Below are positions 1-10,737 of a stretch of DNA of 10,866 bases, one piece after another; positions within the stretch are counted from its first letter, which is position 1; each line of letters starts with the position of its first letter. Under the pieces are notes generated by a model, which searched no databases, had not been told where the DNA came from, and saw only the letters and a program-made list of their open reading frames with translations. The stretch covers positions 1 through 10,866 of the forward strand of contig JAIRLR010000117.1 in assembly GCA_031259195.1 (NCBI GenBank), read 5' to 3'. The position numbers and the translations under genes were made by a program. This DNA comes from Streptococcaceae bacterium. GTDB lineage: Bacteria; Bacillota; Bacilli; Lactobacillales; Streptococcaceae.

Positions 1-26
1 TTGTTTCAAGCTTTGCTTGATTACAA
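1..26. repeat. 26-bp hairpin core, first occurrence
   Basis: The arms TTGTTTCAAGC and GCTTGATTACAA flank a TTT loop and pair almost perfectly. The same 26 bases recur exactly at 134-159 and, on the opposite strand, at 4323-4348 and 4456-4481. Confidence 0.85.
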
Positions 27-133
27 ATCGCAAGGAACGGGAGCCTCGATTTAGCACCAACGCGTAGCTTCCCTTGCGTTTTTTGCCTCAAATTGTAAAA
101 AAATAGCTCAAAAAACCTGGCAGGCTTACCAAA

Positions 134-159
134 TTGTTTCAAGCTTTGCTTGATTACAA
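134..159. repeat. 26-bp hairpin core, second occurrence
   Basis: Identical to 1-26. Its outer flanks (CTTACCAAA on the left, TTTGTATAG on the right) are a slightly decayed version of the complementary arms seen in the matching hairpin of copy C (4314-4358). Confidence 0.85.
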
Positions 160-249
160 TTTGTATAGTAGGATTCATTTCATTAGAGATCTTGGGCAAG
201 CTCTAAGAATGCTTATCTAGGAAAAATGTTTGCAAGACTACTAGTAGTT

Positions 250-1641
250 TCACCCCACAGATCCTTCCATTTCATAACTAATCAAGCGGTTTAACTCCAC
301 CGCATACTCCATCGGCAGCTCCTTTGTAAAGGGCTCCACAAACCCCATCACAATCATTTCTGTGGCCTTACTTTCTGTTAAGCCACGACTCATCAAATAA
401 TACAGTTGCTCTTCAGAAATTTTCGAAACTTTTGCTTCATGTTCGAGTGTTACTTGAGAATTATGCGCTTCATTAAGCGGGAAAGTATCAGATCTTGAAA
501 ATTCATCCATGATAATCGTGTCACACTCAACATGAGAAGCTGAGTATTTACTATTCTTACCAAACTTAACAATACCGCGATAGTTGGTCTCACCGCCACC
601 TTTGGCAATCGATTTAGAAACAATGGAACTAGAAGTATTTGGCGCGCGATGAATCATCTTAGCTCCGGTATCTTGAATCTGGCCGGTATTGGCAAAAGCA
701 ATCGAAAGCATGGTTCCACGGGCACCCTGCCCATCCAAAACAACAGCTGGATACTTCATCGTTGTTTTCGATCCCAGATTGCCATCAATCCACTCTACAG
801 TCGCAAAATCTTTTGCCTGCGCGCGCTTTGTTACCAAGTTGTAAACATTATCCGACCAATTTTGAATCGTGGAATAGCGCATATATGAATTCTCTAAAGC
901 AAAAATCTCCACCACTGCTGCATGTAGTGAATGACTGGAATAAGTAGGAGCCGTACAACCTTCTACATAATGCACGCTTGCTCCCTCATCAACAATAATT
1001 AACGTCCTTTCAAATTGCCCCATCTTTTCCGCATTAATTCTAAAATATGTCTGCAGCGGAATATCAACTTTTACTCCCTTTGGTACATAAATAAACGTCC
1101 CACCTGACCAGACAGCTGAGTTTAAAGCGGCTAACTTATTATCATCTGGCGGAACTAATTTCGCAAAATACTGTTTAAAAATTTCTGGATATTCCTTTAA
1201 TGCTGAATCCGTATCTGTAAAAATAATCCCTTGCCTTTGAAACTCATCTTTCATATTATGATAGACCACTTCTGACTCATACTGAGCTGATGCTCCCGCT
1301 AAATAAGCACGCTCAGCTTCTGGAATACCGATTCTTTCAAACGTCTCTTTTATCTTTCTTGGCACTTCATCCCATGTGCGCGCTGACTTTTTTGTTGGCT
1401 TTTGATAATAAATAATATCTTCAAAATTAATCGCTGATAAGTTAGGCCCCCAAGCAGGCAGCAGCATTTTATGAAAAGTATGTAAAGACTTAAGGCGAAA
1501 TTCAAGCATCCATGCAGGCTCACTTTTAGCTTTAGAAATCTCACGCACAATATCTTCCGTCAAGCCTTTTCCTGTACTAAACACAGGCTTTACATCATCA
1601 CTAAAGCCAAATTTATACTCATCTAACTTTGGAACATCCAT
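250..1641 (-). CDS. sufB: SufB, Fe-S cluster assembly scaffold protein
   Basis: SufB is the scaffold subunit of the cytosolic SufBCD complex, where Fe-S clusters are built from sulfur passed on by SufS/SufU and with ATP hydrolysis by SufC. The 463-aa product has normal full length. Residues matching the functional set in E. coli SufB are visible: R201 and N203 (in YFRIN), C229 (in VEGCTAP), C373 (in HVECDT) and the E400-H401-E402 triad (in LEHEAK). The C-terminal half shows the beta-helix composition of the SufB/SufD core. The ATG at 1641 has a strong GAGGTGG ribosome binding site at 1646-1652. In most Bacillota sufB closes a sufC-D-S-U-B operon. Here the gene upstream is a pilin with its own terminator, so sufB appears to be transcribed on its own. 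Family assignment is secure; the unusual context is observed directly. Confidence 0.97.
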
Positions 1642-1645
1642 GATT

Positions 1646-1652
1646 CCACCTC
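1646..1652 (-). promoter_or_regulatory. Ribosome binding site of sufB
   Basis: GAGGTGG on the minus strand, four bases before the ATG at 1641. It supports that start. Confidence 0.75.
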
Positions 1653-1672
1653 ATACCATCTCTTCAAAGGTA

Positions 1673-1700
1673 AGTATAGTCTTGCCAACACGACTACAAA
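1673..1700 (-). promoter_or_regulatory. Possible sufB promoter
   Basis: On the minus strand, TATACT (1673-1678) resembles a -10 box, with a weak TTTGTA about 16 bases upstream as -35. A start near 1666 would leave a leader of about 25 nt containing the sufB ribosome binding site. This fits a gene not co-transcribed with the pilin, but the -35 match is poor. Confidence 0.3.
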
Positions 1701-1805
1701 CCTTTTCCTTATCTTTTTAAGACTACCCATACATATAGCAAATAGTAAAATGTTTTTGCTAAGATTACAATTACCGAATTGCGTCATAAAAAAACACCCG
1801 CAAAT

Positions 1806-1854
1806 AAAAAACTGGAAGTTAAAAGTATGTTTTAACTTCCAACTACCAGTTTTT
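1806..1854 (-). terminator. Intrinsic terminator of the pilin gene
   Basis: A perfect 11-bp stem, GGAAGTTAAAA with TTTTAACTTCC (1814-1840), has a five-base loop. An outer AAAAACT/AGTTTTT pairing extends it. On the minus strand the stem is followed by a T-rich run. It lies 17 bases past the pilin stop and separates the pilin from sufB. The tracts on both sides could let it work in either direction. Confidence 0.85.
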
Positions 1855-1870
1855 ATTTTAAAAGAAGTTA

Positions 1871-3877
1871 TTAAGAAATGTTTCCTTTTATTTTGCGGTT
1901 ACGAACTAGCATATATCCTCCGATACCCATTGCTGAGATACCGATTACCAGGAAGATGACAATACCGATACCACCAGTTGATGGTAAGTAACCTTTAGGA
2001 TAGTTTTTGATTTTTTCTAATGTTTTACCAGCTTGTCCAACATAAGTAGATTGGTTAAGTGATCCATCAATTGTAAATGAAATGGTTGTCGCACTATCAT
2101 CCAAGTAGTAGCCATCTGGGGATTGTACTTCTTCTACTTGATAAGTTCCTTTTCTAAGTCCAGGCAGGTTGATTTTTCCAGTAGATGCTGAACCATTTGT
2201 GCTATCAGTTGTTGTCCAGAAAACTTGAACGGGCACATTTGAAAAGGTATCACCACTTTCCGTAGTTCCCGATCCTGTTACCTCTCCAGCAGCAAAATCA
2301 GAAGCTTTATGATCTCCTGTAACATTCAACCAGCGAACTTCACCATCAGTTGTATAACCGCCAAAGTATTTGCCATCATTACGTTTTAAGACAAAAGCTG
2401 CTTTTCCATCAGTAATTAATTGACTAGATCTACCGTTTACTTTGTCAAACCCTTTTTTAAAAACAATCACAAACTCTGAGTCATCTTGACCTTCATTATC
2501 TCCACTACCATCATTTTTATGATTTTTATATCTAATTAAGTTATTCATGCTTTTTTCAATTGGTGCATCCTGAGTTACAATCATTCTTAATTTAATTGTG
2601 ATCACTTTTCCTGCTAATTTTTGTAATTTTTCTGTATTTGTTTGAGAAACAGTAGTTGGCATAACGAAATTAAATTGTAAATTTTTGGTCTTATTATAAT
2701 CAGTTGTGCCACTTGTAGCAGCTTCATTTGAATATTTATTTATTGTTAAATTAAGCGGAGTGCTTAGAAGTGAGTTATAAGAAGCTTGAGCACTCGTTTT
2801 AGCATCGGCAAAATCCGTATGTTCGTTACTTTGATCTTCTATTGTTATCTTATCAATTGAGAAAAATGCTAATCCATCATCTGGTAAATCATTTAGCTTA
2901 AAATACGCATGCTTATATGTACTTGCATCTACAAGCGATGATAAATCGTAAGGTAATTTATAATTAATTTCAAATTCTACCAATTCACCAATGGATCTAG
3001 TTACAGTTGGATCAGATGTGTTACCAGTAGTTCCTAACGGACCGTTTGTTGCATCTTTATCATCAATAAATACAAAGCCATCAAGATCTCCATCAGAATC
3101 ATCAGCTTTGTCTTGCTGCGTTGATACTAATTTTTTTTCAATATCTGGTCTTGAATCAACAACGTTTTTAGGATAAAGATCTACTACATTATCTGTCTCG
3201 CTTGCTAAGTATAAATCGTCAGAATTTTGATCTTTAAGAACTGGTAAAGAAAATACAGTATTTACTGTTTTTGGAATTTGTACAATATTGGTTGAAGGTG
3301 TTCCAACAATGTAAGCGCCTGAAGTATTTGATTCTACAGCTACGTACACTTTGTTAGCTCCATTGCCGCTGGCTTGTGCAACATTTTCAAATTTTGCGAT
3401 CCCGTCACTGCTTCCCGTTGTTTTAGTATCTATAAGTGTAGCATTAGGGTCACTAGTCATGGAAGCAGGTGTCTTACCTTTATAATGATCTACAGTACTA
3501 TTAAAAGCTTGAAGTCGTTGTTCTTGTGTTGTCTCTAAAACATTTGTAACTAAAGCAATTCTTTTTAATTCTGCATCAAAAAATGGAGTAACATCATATA
3601 ATCGAAACACCACTCCAGCAATTTTTTCCTTTTCTTCTAAAGCCGCTATAAGATCTCCAGTGTTTTGATAGGGCTGCTCATCGAATTCTGTTTGCGTTAC
3701 TTTTACCTTGTGGAGGTTAACTATTACTGGATGAGTAGATGTTTCTGCATTTGCTTCATATTTTGCTTCGGCATCCGTCTCTGCATTAATAGTAAACGGC
3801 TGAATAGTGCTGACGACACTTGGCGCAAGCAACATTCCTGTAGCTACGATGCTAAATAATTTTTTCTTAAAGTTCAT
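1871..3877 (-). CDS. LPXTG-anchored major-pilin-like surface protein
   Basis: This 668-aa secreted protein is covalently anchored to the cell wall. A signal peptide covers residues 1 to about 32 (basic MNFKKK, hydrophobic stretch, NAE processing region). An N-terminal pilin/Cna-like domain starts near VIVNLHK (51-57). A pilin-type YPK motif with a candidate cross-linking lysine lies at 235-237 (VVDLYPKN). A C-terminal Cna-B-like domain carries an E-box-like stretch at 579-590 (YQVEEVQSPDGY). The sorting signal LPSTG is at 631-635, followed by a membrane segment (about 637-657) and a basic tail. These are the marks of a sortase-polymerised pilus backbone. No sortase C or minor pilin is present in the window, so polymerisation is inferred. 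An aspartate-rich loop at 260-267 (DSDGDLDG) resembles a calcium-binding motif. The ATG at 3877 follows an AAGGAGAG ribosome binding site, and the gene ends in tandem stops. The exact fibre type is not determined. Confidence 0.9.
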   Translation of the reverse strand: MNFKKKLFSIVATGMLLAPSVVSTIQPFTINAETDAEAKYEANAETSTHPVIVNLHKVKVTQTEFDEQPYQNTGDLIAALEEKEKIAGVVFRLYDVTPFFDAELKRIALVTNVLETTQEQRLQAFNSTVDHYKGKTPASMTSDPNATLIDTKTTGSSDGIAKFENVAQASGNGANKVYVAVESNTSGAYIVGTPSTNIVQIPKTVNTVFSLPVLKDQNSDDLYLASETDNVVDLYPKNVVDSRPDIEKKLVSTQQDKADDSDGDLDGFVFIDDKDATNGPLGTTGNTSDPTVTRSIGELVEFEINYKLPYDLSSLVDASTYKHAYFKLNDLPDDGLAFFSIDKITIEDQSNEHTDFADAKTSAQASYNSLLSTPLNLTINKYSNEAATSGTTDYNKTKNLQFNFVMPTTVSQTNTEKLQKLAGKVITIKLRMIVTQDAPIEKSMNNLIRYKNHKNDGSGDNEGQDDSEFVIVFKKGFDKVNGRSSQLITDGKAAFVLKRNDGKYFGGYTTDGEVRWLNVTGDHKASDFAAGEVTGSGTTESGDTFSNVPVQVFWTTTDSTNGSASTGKINLPGLRKGTYQVEEVQSPDGYYLDDSATTISFTIDGSLNQSTYVGQAGKTLEKIKNYPKGYLPSTGGIGIVIFLVIGISAMGIGGYMLVRNRKIKGNIS

Positions 3878-3898
3878 TTAACTCTCTCCTTTACTTTT

Positions 3899-3954
3899 AA
3901 AACTTATTTATGACTTATAAAGATCATATTTGAATTAATGCTGTGATTAAGCTG
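3899..3954. repeat. Diverged direct repeat flanking copy B, unit 1
   Basis: This stretch shares ACTTATTTA, TGACTTATAAA, an ATATT block and a TTGA..TAATGCT-like end, in the same order, with 4141-4203. The two units flank mobile copy B. The match is interrupted by small insertions, so they are old duplicates or a decayed pair. Unit 1 covers the proposed pilin promoter. Confidence 0.4.
3923..3950 (-). promoter_or_regulatory. Possible pilin gene promoter
   Basis: On the minus strand TATGAT (3923-3928) can serve as -10, with TTAATC (3945-3950) as a weak -35 at 16-bp spacing. This would give a leader of about 38 nt before the ATG at 3877. The same block recurs, diverged, beyond copy B. Confidence 0.27.
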
Positions 3955-3977
3955 TTTTTTTGATGAAACCACCTCTT

Positions 3978-4139
3978 AGAACCTGTCCAAGATCTCAAAA
4001 TGATGAATAATTTTGGCTCTTTTTTCACACTTTTTCGTTAAAAAGTCTCGATTTAGCACCACTATTCCTGCGTTTTTTGCCTCAAATTGTGAAAAAATAG
4101 CTCAAAAATTCATTTCATTAGAGATCTTGGACAGGTTCT
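3978..4139. mobile_element. MITE-like palindromic element, copy B (162 bp, complete)
   Basis: The ends are perfect inverted repeats: 3978-3996 (AGAACCTGTCCAAGATCTC) matches 4121-4139 in reverse complement, and the symmetry extends four bases outside each end. Inside, the two halves keep matching in inverted orientation (for example GGCTCTTTTTTCACA against the reverse complement of 4080-4103), so the whole element can fold as one long imperfect hairpin. It lacks the 26-bp hairpin modules found in copies A and C and so shows the simple form of the element. A TA lies just outside GAACC and GGTTC on both sides, which could be a target duplication if the ends start at GAACC. It is non-coding and lies upstream of the pilin gene. 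Confidence 0.85.
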
Positions 4140-4140
4140 A

Positions 4141-4203
4141 AGACTTATTTAATCTTTTTTTGACTTATAAAAGCTATATTCATTATTTGACCTTGATGCT
4201 TCT
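4141..4203. repeat. Diverged direct repeat flanking copy B, unit 2
   Basis: Partner of 3899-3954 on the far side of copy B. It shares ACTTATTTA, TGACTTATAAA and TTGA....GATGCT in order. Confidence 0.4.
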
Positions 4204-4216
4204 TTTTTAAACCTTA

Positions 4217-4245
4217 GTTTATTTGATCTGAATATATTCTATAAT
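4217..4245 (+). promoter_or_regulatory. Possible promoter of the HD-HAD-rel-birA cluster
   Basis: A perfect TATAAT at 4240-4245 faces the plus-strand cluster, with only a weak -35 (TTTATT near 4218). Transcription would begin near 4252, just before copy C. With copy C removed, the leader would be a normal length of about 45 nt, which supports the idea that the element landed in an existing 5' leader. Confidence 0.4.
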
Positions 4246-4313
4246 AAAATTTATTTTAATAAAACAAAAAGCACTTAAGAACCTGTTAACGATCTCTAGC
4301 GAAGTGAATCCCA

Positions 4314-4358
4314 CTATACAAATTGTAATCAAGCAAAGCTTGAAACAATTTGTAATAG
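4314..4358. repeat. Hairpin module 1 of copy C
   Basis: The 26-bp core (4323-4348) is extended by outer arms CTATACAAA and TTTGTAATAG that pair with a one-base bulge. The loop is AAA on this strand. Confidence 0.75.
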
Positions 4359-4443
4359 CCCGACAGGTTTTTTGAGCTATTTTTTCACAATTTGAGGCAA
4401 AAAATGCAGGGAAGCTACGCATTGGTGCTAAATTGAGGCCCCC

Positions 4444-4494
4444 GTTCCTTGCGATTTGTAATCAAGCAAAGCTTGAAACAACTTCGTAAGGAAC
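4444..4494. repeat. Hairpin module 2 of copy C
   Basis: The same 26-bp core (4456-4481) is enclosed by a different pair of arms, GTTCCTTGCGA (4444-4454) and TCGTAAGGAAC (4484-4494), which pair over 11 positions with one mismatch. The total hairpin is about 51 bases. Confidence 0.75.
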
Positions 4495-4578
4495 CCGACA
4501 GGTCTTTTAACGAAAAAGTGTGGAAAAATAGCCAAAATTATTCATCGTTGGGAGATAAGTTAACAGGTTCTAAGCGCC

Positions 4579-4585
4579 AAGGAGG
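4579..4585 (+). promoter_or_regulatory. Ribosome binding site of the HD-domain gene
   Basis: AAGGAGG ends five bases before the ATG at 4591. It is separated from the end of copy C (4571) by only seven bases, so it survived the insertion intact. Confidence 0.85.
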
Positions 4586-4590
4586 TTTCA

Positions 4591-5898
4591 ATGATCTCAT
4601 ATCAAGAAAGATTAATAGACGAAAAAGTTTTTCGTGATCCTGTTCATAATTATATAAAAGTTGATCATCAGTTAATTTTAGATTTGATTAATGCAAAAGA
4701 AATGCAGCGTTTGCGTCATATTAAGCAGTTAGGAACTTCGAGTTTTACTTTTCATGGTAGCGAACATAGCCGTTTTACACACTCGCTGGGTGTTTATGAG
4801 ATTGCCCGTAAAATTTGCAATATTTTTAATCGCTATTATCCTAAAGGTAGTAACCATAAAGATGGTTGGGATGATTCACAGCGTTTATTAACTTTAGTTG
4901 CGGCGTTGCTGCATGATATTGGACATGGTGCTTATTCTCATACTTTTGAGCATATTTTTAATACTGATCACGAGCAATTTACAATAGATATTATTACCTC
5001 TAATCAAACAGAAGTCTTTCAAATCTTGCATCATTTTGCAAAAGATTTTCCGGGAAAAGTCGCACAAGTGATTCAAAAAAACTATAGAAATCAACAGGTT
5101 GTCCAGATTATATCTTCACAAATCGATGCCGATCGGATGGATTATCTACTGCGCGATGCTTATTATACAGGAACAAAATATGGTACTTTTGATTTAACAA
5201 GAATTTTACGCACGATTCGCCCTGTAAGAGACGGCATTGCTTTTAAAGCTAGTGGCATGCACGCTGTTGAGGACTACATCATAAGTCGTTATCAAATGTA
5301 TATGCAGGTTTACTTTCATCCTACTAGTAGAGCGATGGAAATTATTTTAAAGCATTTGCTTAAAAGAGCAAGAGCTTGTGCTTTATATCAAGAGAAGCCT
5401 GATTATTTTAGGCAAACAGCGCCTCGCTTGCTTACCTTTTTAAAAGGGGAATACAAATTAGAAGACTATCTTTTTTTAAATGATAATGTTTTAAATACTT
5501 ACTTTGCTGAGTGGAAATTGGCAAAAGATCCTGTATTAAGTGATTTAGCTATCCGTTTTTTGGAGCGAAAGCCGCTAAAATCTTGTGCTTTTACCAATCA
5601 AAGTAAAGCTATTATCGATGAAATGAGAAAACTGGTAGCTGCTGCAGGATTTGCTTCTGATTATTATACAGCTATAAGTTCTAGTTATGATTTGCCATAT
5701 GATTTTTATCATCCAAGTACCAAAAATGCGCAAATTGATATTATGCTTGAAAATGGTCAATTAACAGAGTTATCAACTATGAGTCCGCTAGTTCTTGCAT
5801 TAGCGGAGAATGCTCATGGGGAGCAGCGTTTTTACTTTCCAAAAGAAATGTTAAATAGCTCACAAATAAAATTTAATCAACTACGGAATTCTCTCTAA
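4591..5898 (+). CDS. HD-domain phosphohydrolase, dNTP triphosphohydrolase-like (SAMHD1/YwfO type)
   Basis: This 435-aa cytosolic protein belongs to the HD superfamily group that includes SAMHD1 and the Enterococcus faecalis dNTPase EF1143. Characterised members split dNTPs into deoxynucleosides and triphosphate. The metal-binding set is intact: H64 (RFTHSLG), H108-D109 (LLHDIGHGAYSH) and D181 in IDADRMDY, where R182 and Y185 sit where SAMHD1 has its substrate-contacting lysine and tyrosine. The N-terminal DPVHNYI (16-22) is also typical. The start is fixed by AAGGAGG at 4579. It heads a cluster with a HAD phosphatase 15 bases downstream and then rel, so a role in nucleotide-pool control is plausible. 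Substrate and allosteric control cannot be read from the sequence. The 5' leader is occupied by mobile copy C. Confidence 0.92.
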   Translation: MISYQERLIDEKVFRDPVHNYIKVDHQLILDLINAKEMQRLRHIKQLGTSSFTFHGSEHSRFTHSLGVYEIARKICNIFNRYYPKGSNHKDGWDDSQRLLTLVAALLHDIGHGAYSHTFEHIFNTDHEQFTIDIITSNQTEVFQILHHFAKDFPGKVAQVIQKNYRNQQVVQIISSQIDADRMDYLLRDAYYTGTKYGTFDLTRILRTIRPVRDGIAFKASGMHAVEDYIISRYQMYMQVYFHPTSRAMEIILKHLLKRARACALYQEKPDYFRQTAPRLLTFLKGEYKLEDYLFLNDNVLNTYFAEWKLAKDPVLSDLAIRFLERKPLKSCAFTNQSKAIIDEMRKLVAAAGFASDYYTAISSSYDLPYDFYHPSTKNAQIDIMLENGQLTELSTMSPLVLALAENAHGEQRFYFPKEMLNSSQIKFNQLRNSL

Positions 5899-8996: not shown

Positions 8997-9965
8997 ATGA
9001 AAGTAAAAGAACTTGTTTTAAGAGAACTAGTCAAACACTTGAAGCAAAATATTTCTGGCGAAAGTTTAGCAAAAACTTTAAGTCTTTCAAGAACAGCTAT
9101 TTGGGAAGCCATTCATGAGTTAATCAATGACGGCTATAAGATTAGCTCAAAAACCAACAAGGGGTATTGTCTAAGCATGCCTCAGCGTTTATCTAAAGAA
9201 GTTATCGAATATTTTCTATCAGAGAAGGCACCGATTAAGCATATAGAGTTCAAAGAGACAACTGATTCAACTCAAAACGACGCTAAGCGTTTTTCTTTAA
9301 ATAACAAAAAAGAAGTGCTGATTCTTAGCGATCATCAAACCGCAGGCAAAGGACGTTTTGGCCGAGCTTACTTTTCACCTGCTCAAAAAGGCTTCTATAT
9401 GAGTCTTCTACTTTTTCCAAAACGCACCCACCTAGATGTGCCACAATATACTTTGTTGACGGCAGTCGCCATTGTTCGTGCAGTGGAAAACCTAACAGAC
9501 AAACAGCCTCTTATTAAGTGGGTCAATGATATCTATCTTAATGGCAAAAAAATTTGTGGTATTTTAAGCGAAGCCGTCACTGATGTTGAAAGCAATCAGA
9601 TAACGAGCGTAATTATTGGCATCGGCTTTAATTTTTCAACTCCGCAGGAAGAATTTCCGAAAGAATTACAAAAGAAAGCTACTTCATTATTTGCAGATAC
9701 TCAGCCTTTCATTTCGCGCAATGAATTGATCGTTGAAATTTGGAAACAATTTTATCAATTAACGAATACTGATTTTATTGAAATTTATCGTCAGCATTCT
9801 TTTGTTTTGGGAAAGCAAGTGAGTTTTACTGAAGAAAATAAAACTTATCAAGGAATTGCCAAGCAAATTACCGATGCCGGGCAATTGGAAGTTTTGTTGG
9901 CCGATGGCAACTTAAAAACCCTAAATGCCGGAGAAATCAGTTTGAAAAGTATAAGTACTTGTTAA
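8997..9965 (+). CDS. birA: BirA, biotin-protein ligase and biotin-operon repressor
   Basis: This 322-aa class II biotin-protein ligase activates biotin as biotinyl-AMP and attaches it to carboxylase carrier domains. The N-terminal winged helix-turn-helix (about 5-60, LAKTLSLSRTAIWEAIHEL) suggests it also represses biotin genes. The catalytic core shows TTDSTQNDA (88-96), the adenylate-binding loop GKGRFGR (117-123), KWVNDIYLNGKK (174-185) and GIGFNF (208-213). The loop has Lys where the classical GRGRxGR has Arg, a conservative change. A small C-terminal domain follows. The ATG has TTGGAG 7-12 bases upstream and lies 20 bases after rel. The last codons, for I-S-T-C and the TAA stop, lie at the edge of or inside the inverted end of mobile copy D, so the natural C-terminus was probably replaced. 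The change falls beyond the conserved GEISLK region and is unlikely to abolish function. Confidence 0.95.
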   Translation: MKVKELVLRELVKHLKQNISGESLAKTLSLSRTAIWEAIHELINDGYKISSKTNKGYCLSMPQRLSKEVIEYFLSEKAPIKHIEFKETTDSTQNDAKRFSLNNKKEVLILSDHQTAGKGRFGRAYFSPAQKGFYMSLLLFPKRTHLDVPQYTLLTAVAIVRAVENLTDKQPLIKWVNDIYLNGKKICGILSEAVTDVESNQITSVIIGIGFNFSTPQEEFPKELQKKATSLFADTQPFISRNELIVEIWKQFYQLTNTDFIEIYRQHSFVLGKQVSFTEENKTYQGIAKQITDAGQLEVLLADGNLKTLNAGEISLKSISTC

Positions 9966-10075
9966 CTTGTCTCCAATTGCGAACTGCCTTAACGATTGGC
10001 AAGCGTTAGCTTGACAGAGTTTAGGCAGGATGTACCTACATTAGTGCGCAAATCTGGAGAGCGTTAACAGGTTCT
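9954..10075. mobile_element. Small MITE-like element, copy D (122 bp), between birA and cat
   Basis: The ends are AGTACTTGTTAAC (9954-9966) and GTTAACAGGTTCT (10063-10075). They match as inverted repeats at 11 of 13 positions, and at 14 of 16 when three flanking bases are included. Its first 22 bases on the right agree with the end of copy C at 20 positions, so the same transposase could recognise both. Internal pairings continue (CTCCAATTGCG with CGCAAATCTGGAG; CTGCCTTAA with TTTAGGCAG; TAACG with CGTTA), so the whole element can fold into a branched hairpin. A 4-bp TATA lies directly outside both ends and may be a target duplication. It is non-coding. It may terminate transcription from both sides, since no other terminator is seen between birA and cat. 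Confidence 0.75.
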
Positions 10076-10737
10076 TATAACCAATCCTCGAATTTATTGC
10101 ACAATTCTTGCAAACGCTCTACGAATTTGCCGACATGGTATCCGTCGCAAATAGTGTGATGTACTTGAATTGCAACGAGTAACTGAAGCCTGCCATTGTA
10201 GTCTGCGGCAATCTTGCCAATGGTAATCTGTGGCGCAAGCCAAGTAAACGGGTGTTGGCAGTAAATATTCAGGTTGAAGCCTGTAAAACTCACCCACGAC
10301 AAACACGAGAAGTCGAAAATGTTTGGAATGTCCGACATCAGCTCAAATCCGACCTTACTTTTATATTCGTTCATATCGGCAGTGCACTTCTCGTAGAACG
10401 TACGAAAATTCGAGGTGTACTCCGTCCAGATGACGCCAAAGGTCTCAGTTTTTTCATTGAATACATTGTATCTTGGGTTAACATAATCCCATACGCCGAG
10501 TTCGCCCCGCTCATTGTGTGCCATGCGAAACTCGCGAATATCATTCACAGCTCTCGAAAACAACCAGCATTGGGTTGGGAAAGTTCTTAACTCTTTTTCT
10601 TTTAGTCTACTTTGCAAGTCGGTGATGTCAATGTTGGTCGTCAAGCTATATGTTCAGCTTCCGAGCGTGCTGACATAGTGCTTATAATGCTCGCGCCGTG
10701 GATATGTATTCAAATCTATCAAAGTGAATTTGCTCAT
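10075..10737 (-). pseudogene. cat: Chloramphenicol acetyltransferase (class A CAT) with an in-frame stop
   Basis: CAT acetylates the 3-hydroxyl of chloramphenicol using acetyl-CoA and acts as a trimer. Reading from ATG at 10737 gives 220 codons, the normal length for the family, but TGA at 10654-10656 interrupts the frame after MSKFTLIDLNTYPRREHYKH...TLGS. It sits where relatives have Cys in a CTYS motif, so one base change from TGC or TGT explains it. Downstream the frame is intact (189 aa from a TTG at 10644), with FRMAHNERGELGVWD, SWVSFTGFNLN and the active site QVHHTICDGYH. A TTG restart would lose the first 31 residues and lacks a well-placed ribosome binding site, so the gene is probably inactive unless the stop is suppressed or is a sequencing error. 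Its TAA stop overlaps the end of copy D by one base, hinting that a few C-terminal residues were replaced. It is likely an acquired resistance gene. Confidence 0.85.

Follow-up and report, generated by a model that had tools for sequence, protein, structure and literature searches.

A stretch of DNA of 10,866 nucleotides from a Streptococcaceae bacterium (the window; the entire contig G000:C60) contains four copies of a short palindromic element that very probably belongs to a family of MITEs, comprising a hairpin of ~160 bp with the ends of an IS5-family IS, moved in trans into TNA targets, with slot-specific hairpin blocks and an exchange of ends. This reading draws on ends that match those of the IS, on duplicated targets and unfilled sites, on the presence of the family in 5/5 genomes of the genus and on covariation. 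According to the proposed mechanism, the conserved hairpin would bear the IS ends, an IS5-type transposase, the presumed mover, would carry it in trans into TNA targets, and the hairpin would host smaller hairpin blocks, each type in a fixed slot of its own. The differing block combinations observed between close copies would result from insertion, loss and recombination, while the occurrence of the same core between different ends, associated with a second subgroup of IS5, would reflect an end swap.

Copies of the element in the window

The window belongs to a draft genome of 1.03 Mb (186 contigs, 84.25% complete, 3.74% contaminated), designated G000; G000–G004 are the five genomes of the genus, all of them many-contig drafts. 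It encodes a SufB/D protein, an LPXTG/SpaA-type surface protein, an HD-domain protein, a HAD hydrolase, a RelA/SpoT protein, a biotin ligase and a chloramphenicol acetyltransferase-like frame. The HD protein shows 81 and 82% identity to its counterparts in Streptococcaceae bacterium Nc350_bin42 (L090) and Lactobacillales bacterium Gsp477_bin117 (L091). The following features were assigned:

1..204, + strand (relative to copy B): copy A, truncated by the contig start, with part of the slot-65 block, the entire slot-130 block and the right end
3978..4139, + strand: copy B, bare, 162 bp, with mismatched flanking 3-mers TTA / TAA
4278..4571, - strand (relative to copy B): copy C, 294 bp, slots 65 and 130 filled, with target duplication TAA / TAA
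4310..4369, - strand: slot-130 hairpin block of type 1 within copy C, 60 bp
4441..4504, - strand: slot-65 hairpin block of type 2 within copy C, 64 bp
9954..10075, no strand assigned: copy D, 122 bp, consisting of ends, a shortened backbone and a type-3 block, with mismatched flanking 3-mers TAA / TTA
9978..10040 (approximate limits), + strand: type-3 hairpin block within copy D

Copies A, B and C had been recognized in a sequence-only reading of this DNA, and their places are confirmed by the coordinates, by the inverted ends of copy B (19 bp, identical) and by end-to-end folds. The predicted fold of copy B has an energy of -60.4 kcal/mol and z = -10.07 against 200 dinucleotide shuffles, and that of copy C has z = -9.64. 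The same reading described A and C as the backbone with two extra insertions at the same positions. The alignment agrees with this: relative to bare copies, copy C lacks any large deletion and has two insertions of at least 12 bp, one of 64 bp at backbone position 67 and another of 60 bp at 131, and copy A retains all of the second block and part of the first. The 26-bp hairpin core TTGTTTCAAGCTTTGCTTGATTACAA, reported to be identical in the blocks of A and C, was located in all four occurrences, at 1–26 and 134–159 and, on the opposite strand, at 4323–4348 and 4456–4481. Copy D, the fourth in the window, is absent from that reading.

Copies B and C are located between the surface-protein and HD genes, which are divergent. 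The biotin-ligase frame (8997–9965) stops within the left end of copy D, and the right end of this copy overlaps the last codon of the acetyltransferase-like frame. The latter frame (10075–10644) corresponds to positions 30–205 of the 205 of PF00302, the initial part of the profile being unmatched, and ends at copy D.

Copy number, target sites and partner IS

Counts of the end pattern AGAACCTGTNNANNNTCTC, with at most one mismatch, are 158, 169, 18, 115 and 21 for the five genomes of the genus, the first being that of the window, and the reversed-pattern control gives 1, 0, 1, 0 and 3 occurrences in the same order. The abundance of the pattern in the window's genome is far above chance. At E 0.001 copy B matches six of 40 genomes: the five of the genus, that of the window among them, and a single genome of another genus, in which two stretches of 31 and 26 bp match. 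Among 395 genomes drawn from the order, the window's own was the sole match at 1e-6 in a search that scored two candidates per genome, so that weak relatives could be missed; the other four genomes of the genus were presumably outside this draw, since they would have matched. Copies A–D had no BLAST match in 78 loci (L092–L169) of more distant relatives, among them streptococci. Transport by phages or plasmids was rejected, as a 611-bp query had no match in plasmid and phage collections and two exact patterns were not found in viral contigs.

The fetched stretches of the genomes contain 119 distinct elements with paired ends; the G003 stretches were picked from bare-copy matches, which makes their sampling biased. 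Three end pairs, 540, 589 and 702 bp long, are counted among the 119 and stand outside the slot alignment, the tree and the target-duplication test; the 702-bp pair lies inside the relA/spoT gene and was taken as chance. Minimal elements of 45–48 bp, extending scarcely beyond both ends, are present at L248:1051-1095, L245:310-357 and L076:719-764.

An identical 3-mer is found on both sides of 80 of the 114 elements shorter than 400 bp with flanks, whereas shuffling the right flanks 5000 times gives 46.1 on average and never more than 62; agreement between the flanks is greatest at the offset that was expected. The remaining 34 elements, B and D among them, have no matching flank 3-mer. By kind, the identical 3-mers are TTA (53), TAA (26), TCA (2) and TGA (1) among 118 elements. 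From its sequence, the element may be read as GAACCTG...CAGGTTC flanked by copies of TNA.

For 111 elements the two flanks were joined and searched for in every locus fetched, and 18 gave a match spanning the junction, some of these matches probably due only to other repeats within the flanks. Eleven junctions of ten elements were inspected; seven elements were judged to have clear empty sites, listed below, and the other three junctions were unclear.

Empty site 1: 283-bp two-block element of G000 against G002 (376/399 columns identical) and G003 (344/400)
Empty site 2: element of G000 against G001 (347/409 columns identical)
Empty site 3: element of G000 against L090 (311/396 columns identical)
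Empty site 4: element of G001 against L091 (217/252 columns identical)
Empty site 5: element of G003 against G001 (304/365 columns identical)
Empty site 6: element of G002 against G000 (213/275 columns identical)
Empty site 7: element of G000 inside an IS copy against another IS copy at a different locus (356/379 columns identical)

No exact empty site was found for copies B or C, where the alignment with L090 and L091 does not begin until roughly the HD gene start. The suggestion that the copies form a family of mobile, non-coding palindromes, some bare and some with blocks, is upheld by the high copy number, target duplications and empty sites; the check proposed with it, a search for copies and empty sites, returned scores of copies and seven clear unfilled sites, that of the 283-bp two-block element among them.

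Transposase frames, some of them broken, adjoin the same ends as the elements:

L065 from 167, and L187 from 1000: IS left end
L066:799-817 and L067:621-639: IS right end

The open frame of L066 contains a DDE_Tnp_1 domain and reaches 121.2 bits against the IS5-family model NF033580, whose cut-off is 110; no complete, evidently intact copy of this partner IS is present in the fetched stretches. Since an IS5-family IS of these genomes has the same ends as the elements, the elements are MITEs. They have inverted ends matching an IS, a target duplication, a short length and multiple copies, and they lack a transposase gene. The ends common with an IS5-family IS, together with the TNA duplication, are a feature of an element mobilized by an IS5-type enzyme; TNA duplication is the rule for such IS5-family IS. 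BLAST alignments between four IS stretches and the elements shorter than 400 bp are confined to the IS ends and one block inserted in the IS gene, the exception being the 56-bp copy L229, which consists of IS end sequence. With this single exception, the unrelated interior supports the earlier opinion that the family is not an internally deleted transposon, and the search it recommended for an IS with matching termini yielded one, of the IS5 family.

Two other associations with transposase genes were observed. A bare element (L071:185-346) is inserted close to the 3' end of the transposase gene in one copy of the partner IS, and in L074 (G002:C13) two end sequences of this family flank a separate transposase (PF01609, open frame of 357 aa).

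Hairpin, blocks and a proposed exchange of ends

Sixty-one elements are 157–164 bp long; seven were set aside by eye as hybrids, leaving 54 bare copies from four genomes, with a mode of 162 bp. Their consensus fold has 43 pairs, with an outer stem comprising the element ends and an inner part formed by the GATTTAGCACCA hairpin, which the sequence-only reading had also seen. In this fold, 96.5% of cells are paired (88.9% in shuffled alignments), 171 cells show a double change (51.7 shuffled), 17 pairs contain a double change (12.4 shuffled) and the covariation score is 0.218 (0.086 shuffled). Slid versions of the structure are 33–59% paired, a control over which the consensus is favoured because it was taken from the same alignment. 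Base pairing is kept up in the bare hairpin; possible causes are selection on the hairpin or template switching in palindromes.

The strong covariation and stable fold would also suit elements retained for an RNA or terminator function rather than as parasites. This is quite improbable in view of the mixed gene contexts (40 tandem, 11 divergent and 9 convergent among the 60 of 119 elements that could be classified), the lack of terminator-like sites in 3870–4600 (0 against 0.4 in shuffles) and the sole Rfam match, of 22.8 bits against a cut-off of 70. Assignment to a known RNA family was rejected on this score, and a promoter or terminator role for copies B and C was rejected as well, with four promoter-like sites against 2.8 in shuffled sequence and the terminator-like count just given.

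The 31 block-bearing copies that fit the backbone well define the following scheme of slots (backbone positions):

Near 25–31: block type 3, ~61–67 bp
Near 51–57: block type 4, 57 bp
Near 63–67: block type 2, ~61–64 bp
Spread over ~83–114: block type 4'
Near 128–133: block type 1, ~58–61 bp

In L202 an inverted type-1-like block occupies position 33, the mirror place of slot 130. Twenty-seven of the 119 elements, mostly very short, very long or rearranged and including copy D, fit the scheme poorly. The sequence-only reading regarded the modules as interchangeable; there are about six fixed slots, each holding its own block type in well-fitting copies, and the blocks are therefore not freely interchangeable. 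Types 1 and 2 have common ends, ACCTGTCGGG...CGGG, and a loop with the 26-bp core in most of 25 aligned copies, these having been retrieved with a pattern that requires such ends.

A backbone tree was built with 85 rows; the other 34 of the 119 elements are the 7 hybrids and 27 that are too short, too long or poorly fitting. The 17 rows with a filled slot 65 imply no fewer than 14 changes on the tree, and the 18 rows with a filled slot 130 no fewer than 13; slot 97 is filled in 7 rows (6 changes), and slots 51 and 25 in 4 rows each (4 changes each). The 31 block-bearing rows come from G000 (27) and G001 (4). Given the biased sampling, the lack of block-bearing rows from G003, where 44 matches to the block were found, should not be taken for a real absence. 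Seven copies of 157–160 bp, picked by eye, in which the left arm of one block is joined to the right arm of another, look like deletions between two cores.

The family had been proposed to grow by gaining modules. Bare and block-bearing forms do occur, but the change counts on the tree are compatible with gain as well as loss of blocks, and seven copies are deletion-like. It is possible, if rather unlikely, that a large multi-block element is ancestral and that the family shrinks, bare copies having arisen through precise loss of hairpins during replication or through recombination. Slot-specific blocks are what single insertions of each would give, the presence of blocks is scattered over the backbone tree, and the seven copies resembling deletions point the same way. 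However, 54 of the 119 elements are bare, in four genomes and with a sharp mode at 162 bp, and several block types would have to have been lost precisely, time and again; the block in a transposase gene, described next, is moreover a gain.

A type-3 block is present at one place of the partner transposase gene in L053, L064, L066, L067, L068 and L344, the last with two units, while L282 and L297 carry it in a rearranged context and L065 and L069 have no block in the transposase gene. In L066 the block adds 22 codons in frame. It is absent from 5/5 aligned homologues, chosen from 120 listed, and the match of these to the empty form indicates that the block was gained there. The right flanks differ among four block-bearing IS copies (L064, L066, L067 and L068), so these copies did spread, by their own or another enzyme. 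The occurrence of the in-frame block in copies with different flanks suggests that insertion of the hairpin need not have stopped the spread of the partner IS. Type-3 blocks also form tandem arrays, with a period of 65 and 3.0 copies in L340 and a period of 101 and 2.9 copies in L333. The units of L333, L334 and L336 (all G004) are type-3-like and ~100 bp long, apparently with another hairpin nested in the loop.

These places of type 3, non-homologous to one another (MITE slot 25, the IS5 transposase gene and the G004 arrays), could mean that the blocks are themselves independently mobile, as elements of an undescribed kind with neither inverted ends nor evident target duplication. The blocks of types 1 and 2, occupying slots 65 and 130 and once, inverted, position 33, could be explained in the same way. 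We consider independent mobility unlikely: only two or three sites of type 3 are clearly unrelated, recombination between elements could explain the rest, and no Y1 (REP-type) transposase can be linked to the blocks in the PF01797 loci searched. PF01797 was matched in three of the five genomes, and the three loci searched contain no element or block (best BLAST matches of 17–24 bp, E 0.01); mobilization of the blocks by a REP/RAYT or IS200-type system was rejected for this reason. Two of these loci, L270 and L271, read over bases 1–1700 of 2232 and 1–1400 of 2182, contain Y1-type transposase frames on contigs seemingly foreign to the host genome, perhaps as a result of binning contamination.

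The same core and blocks are enclosed by a second type of end, AGACCTCTTGCGAAACTAG, of which three complete pairs were found:

L300:1469-1731: second-family element
L296:1469-1787: second-family element
L049:1743-2030: second-family element

Their flanking 3-mers are identical in two cases (AAT and ATT) and not in the third; ANT is the usual target of the NF033581 subgroup of IS5. A partial frame beside a second-family end in L197 scores 54.8 bits with NF033581 (IS5 family), the full-length cut-off being 140, and a longer frame in L086 exceeds this cut-off with 169.3 bits, its relation to the second-family ends being a candidate one. The alignment of the partial, bare-like copy L216 with a first-family element opens at base 24 of the former and base 26 of the latter and covers 81 columns (82.7%, E 6e-18). 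In this alignment, homology between the two families begins just inside their ends.

A further picture, speculative and in our estimate distinctly unlikely, is that of layered mobile hairpins, with blocks whose mode of movement would leave neither inverted ends nor an evident target duplication colonizing the slots of the MITE and, in frame, the transposase that moves it, and the core swapping ends between two IS5 subgroups.

Comparison with known repeat families

The origin and diversification of bacterial MITEs are known from few families. The five related genomes hold hundreds of end sequences, with copies that are bare, carry one to several blocks, are hybrids or have other ends, and this range of states makes it possible to test whether the uptake of smaller hairpins enlarges MITEs and whether an exchange of ends can give them another transposase. 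A literature search, with subscription journals mostly outside its coverage, found no description of the present MITE family or of several of its features, and none of the titles it listed concerned the EFAR repeats of Enterococcus faecalis, a possible lead.

The present elements have their ends and 3-bp duplications in common with IS5-family IS (NF033580, NF033581). Unlike these IS, they lack a transposase gene, and their interior is unrelated by BLAST to the NF033580-type IS. REP/BIME are likewise high-copy short palindromic repeats; in contrast to them, the present elements have no REP-type (Y1, RAYT) transposase linked to them in the three PF01797 loci searched.

ERIC, RUP, SPRITE and Correia elements resemble the present family in being high-copy short palindromic repeats, and pneumococcal repeats are reported to be inserted into one another. 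Slot-specific blocks are a feature of the present family and are not described for ERIC, RUP, SPRITE or Correia in the accessible parts of these sources (PMC10969869, PMC3049150). Rickettsia palindromic elements, described in part of one of them as ~150 bp long and present in many genes, share with the present family a palindromic block in frame in a protein gene (PMC10969869). The present block differs in its length of ~66 bp, in being seen in one gene family, that of the partner transposase, and in being mostly hosted by MITEs.

The present elements are of a kind already known from the BOX elements of streptococci, which are the closest precedent. The BOX elements of S. pneumoniae and S. suis are characterized, in the accessible portion of the source, as composite non-coding MITE-like repeats with a stable predicted fold, in which boxB is absent or tandem, and S. 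suis has two BOX families with differing ends around the same boxB blocks (PMC3049150). BOX was compared by description, the search at the sequence level being that of copies A–D against the 78 loci including streptococci, with the result given above. Like BOX as described there, the present elements are composite and non-coding, have variable or tandem blocks and a stable predicted fold, and exist with two types of ends around one core. Unlike BOX as described there, the present family has IS5 ends, TNA duplications, about six slot-specific block types and an in-frame block in the transposase of its partner.
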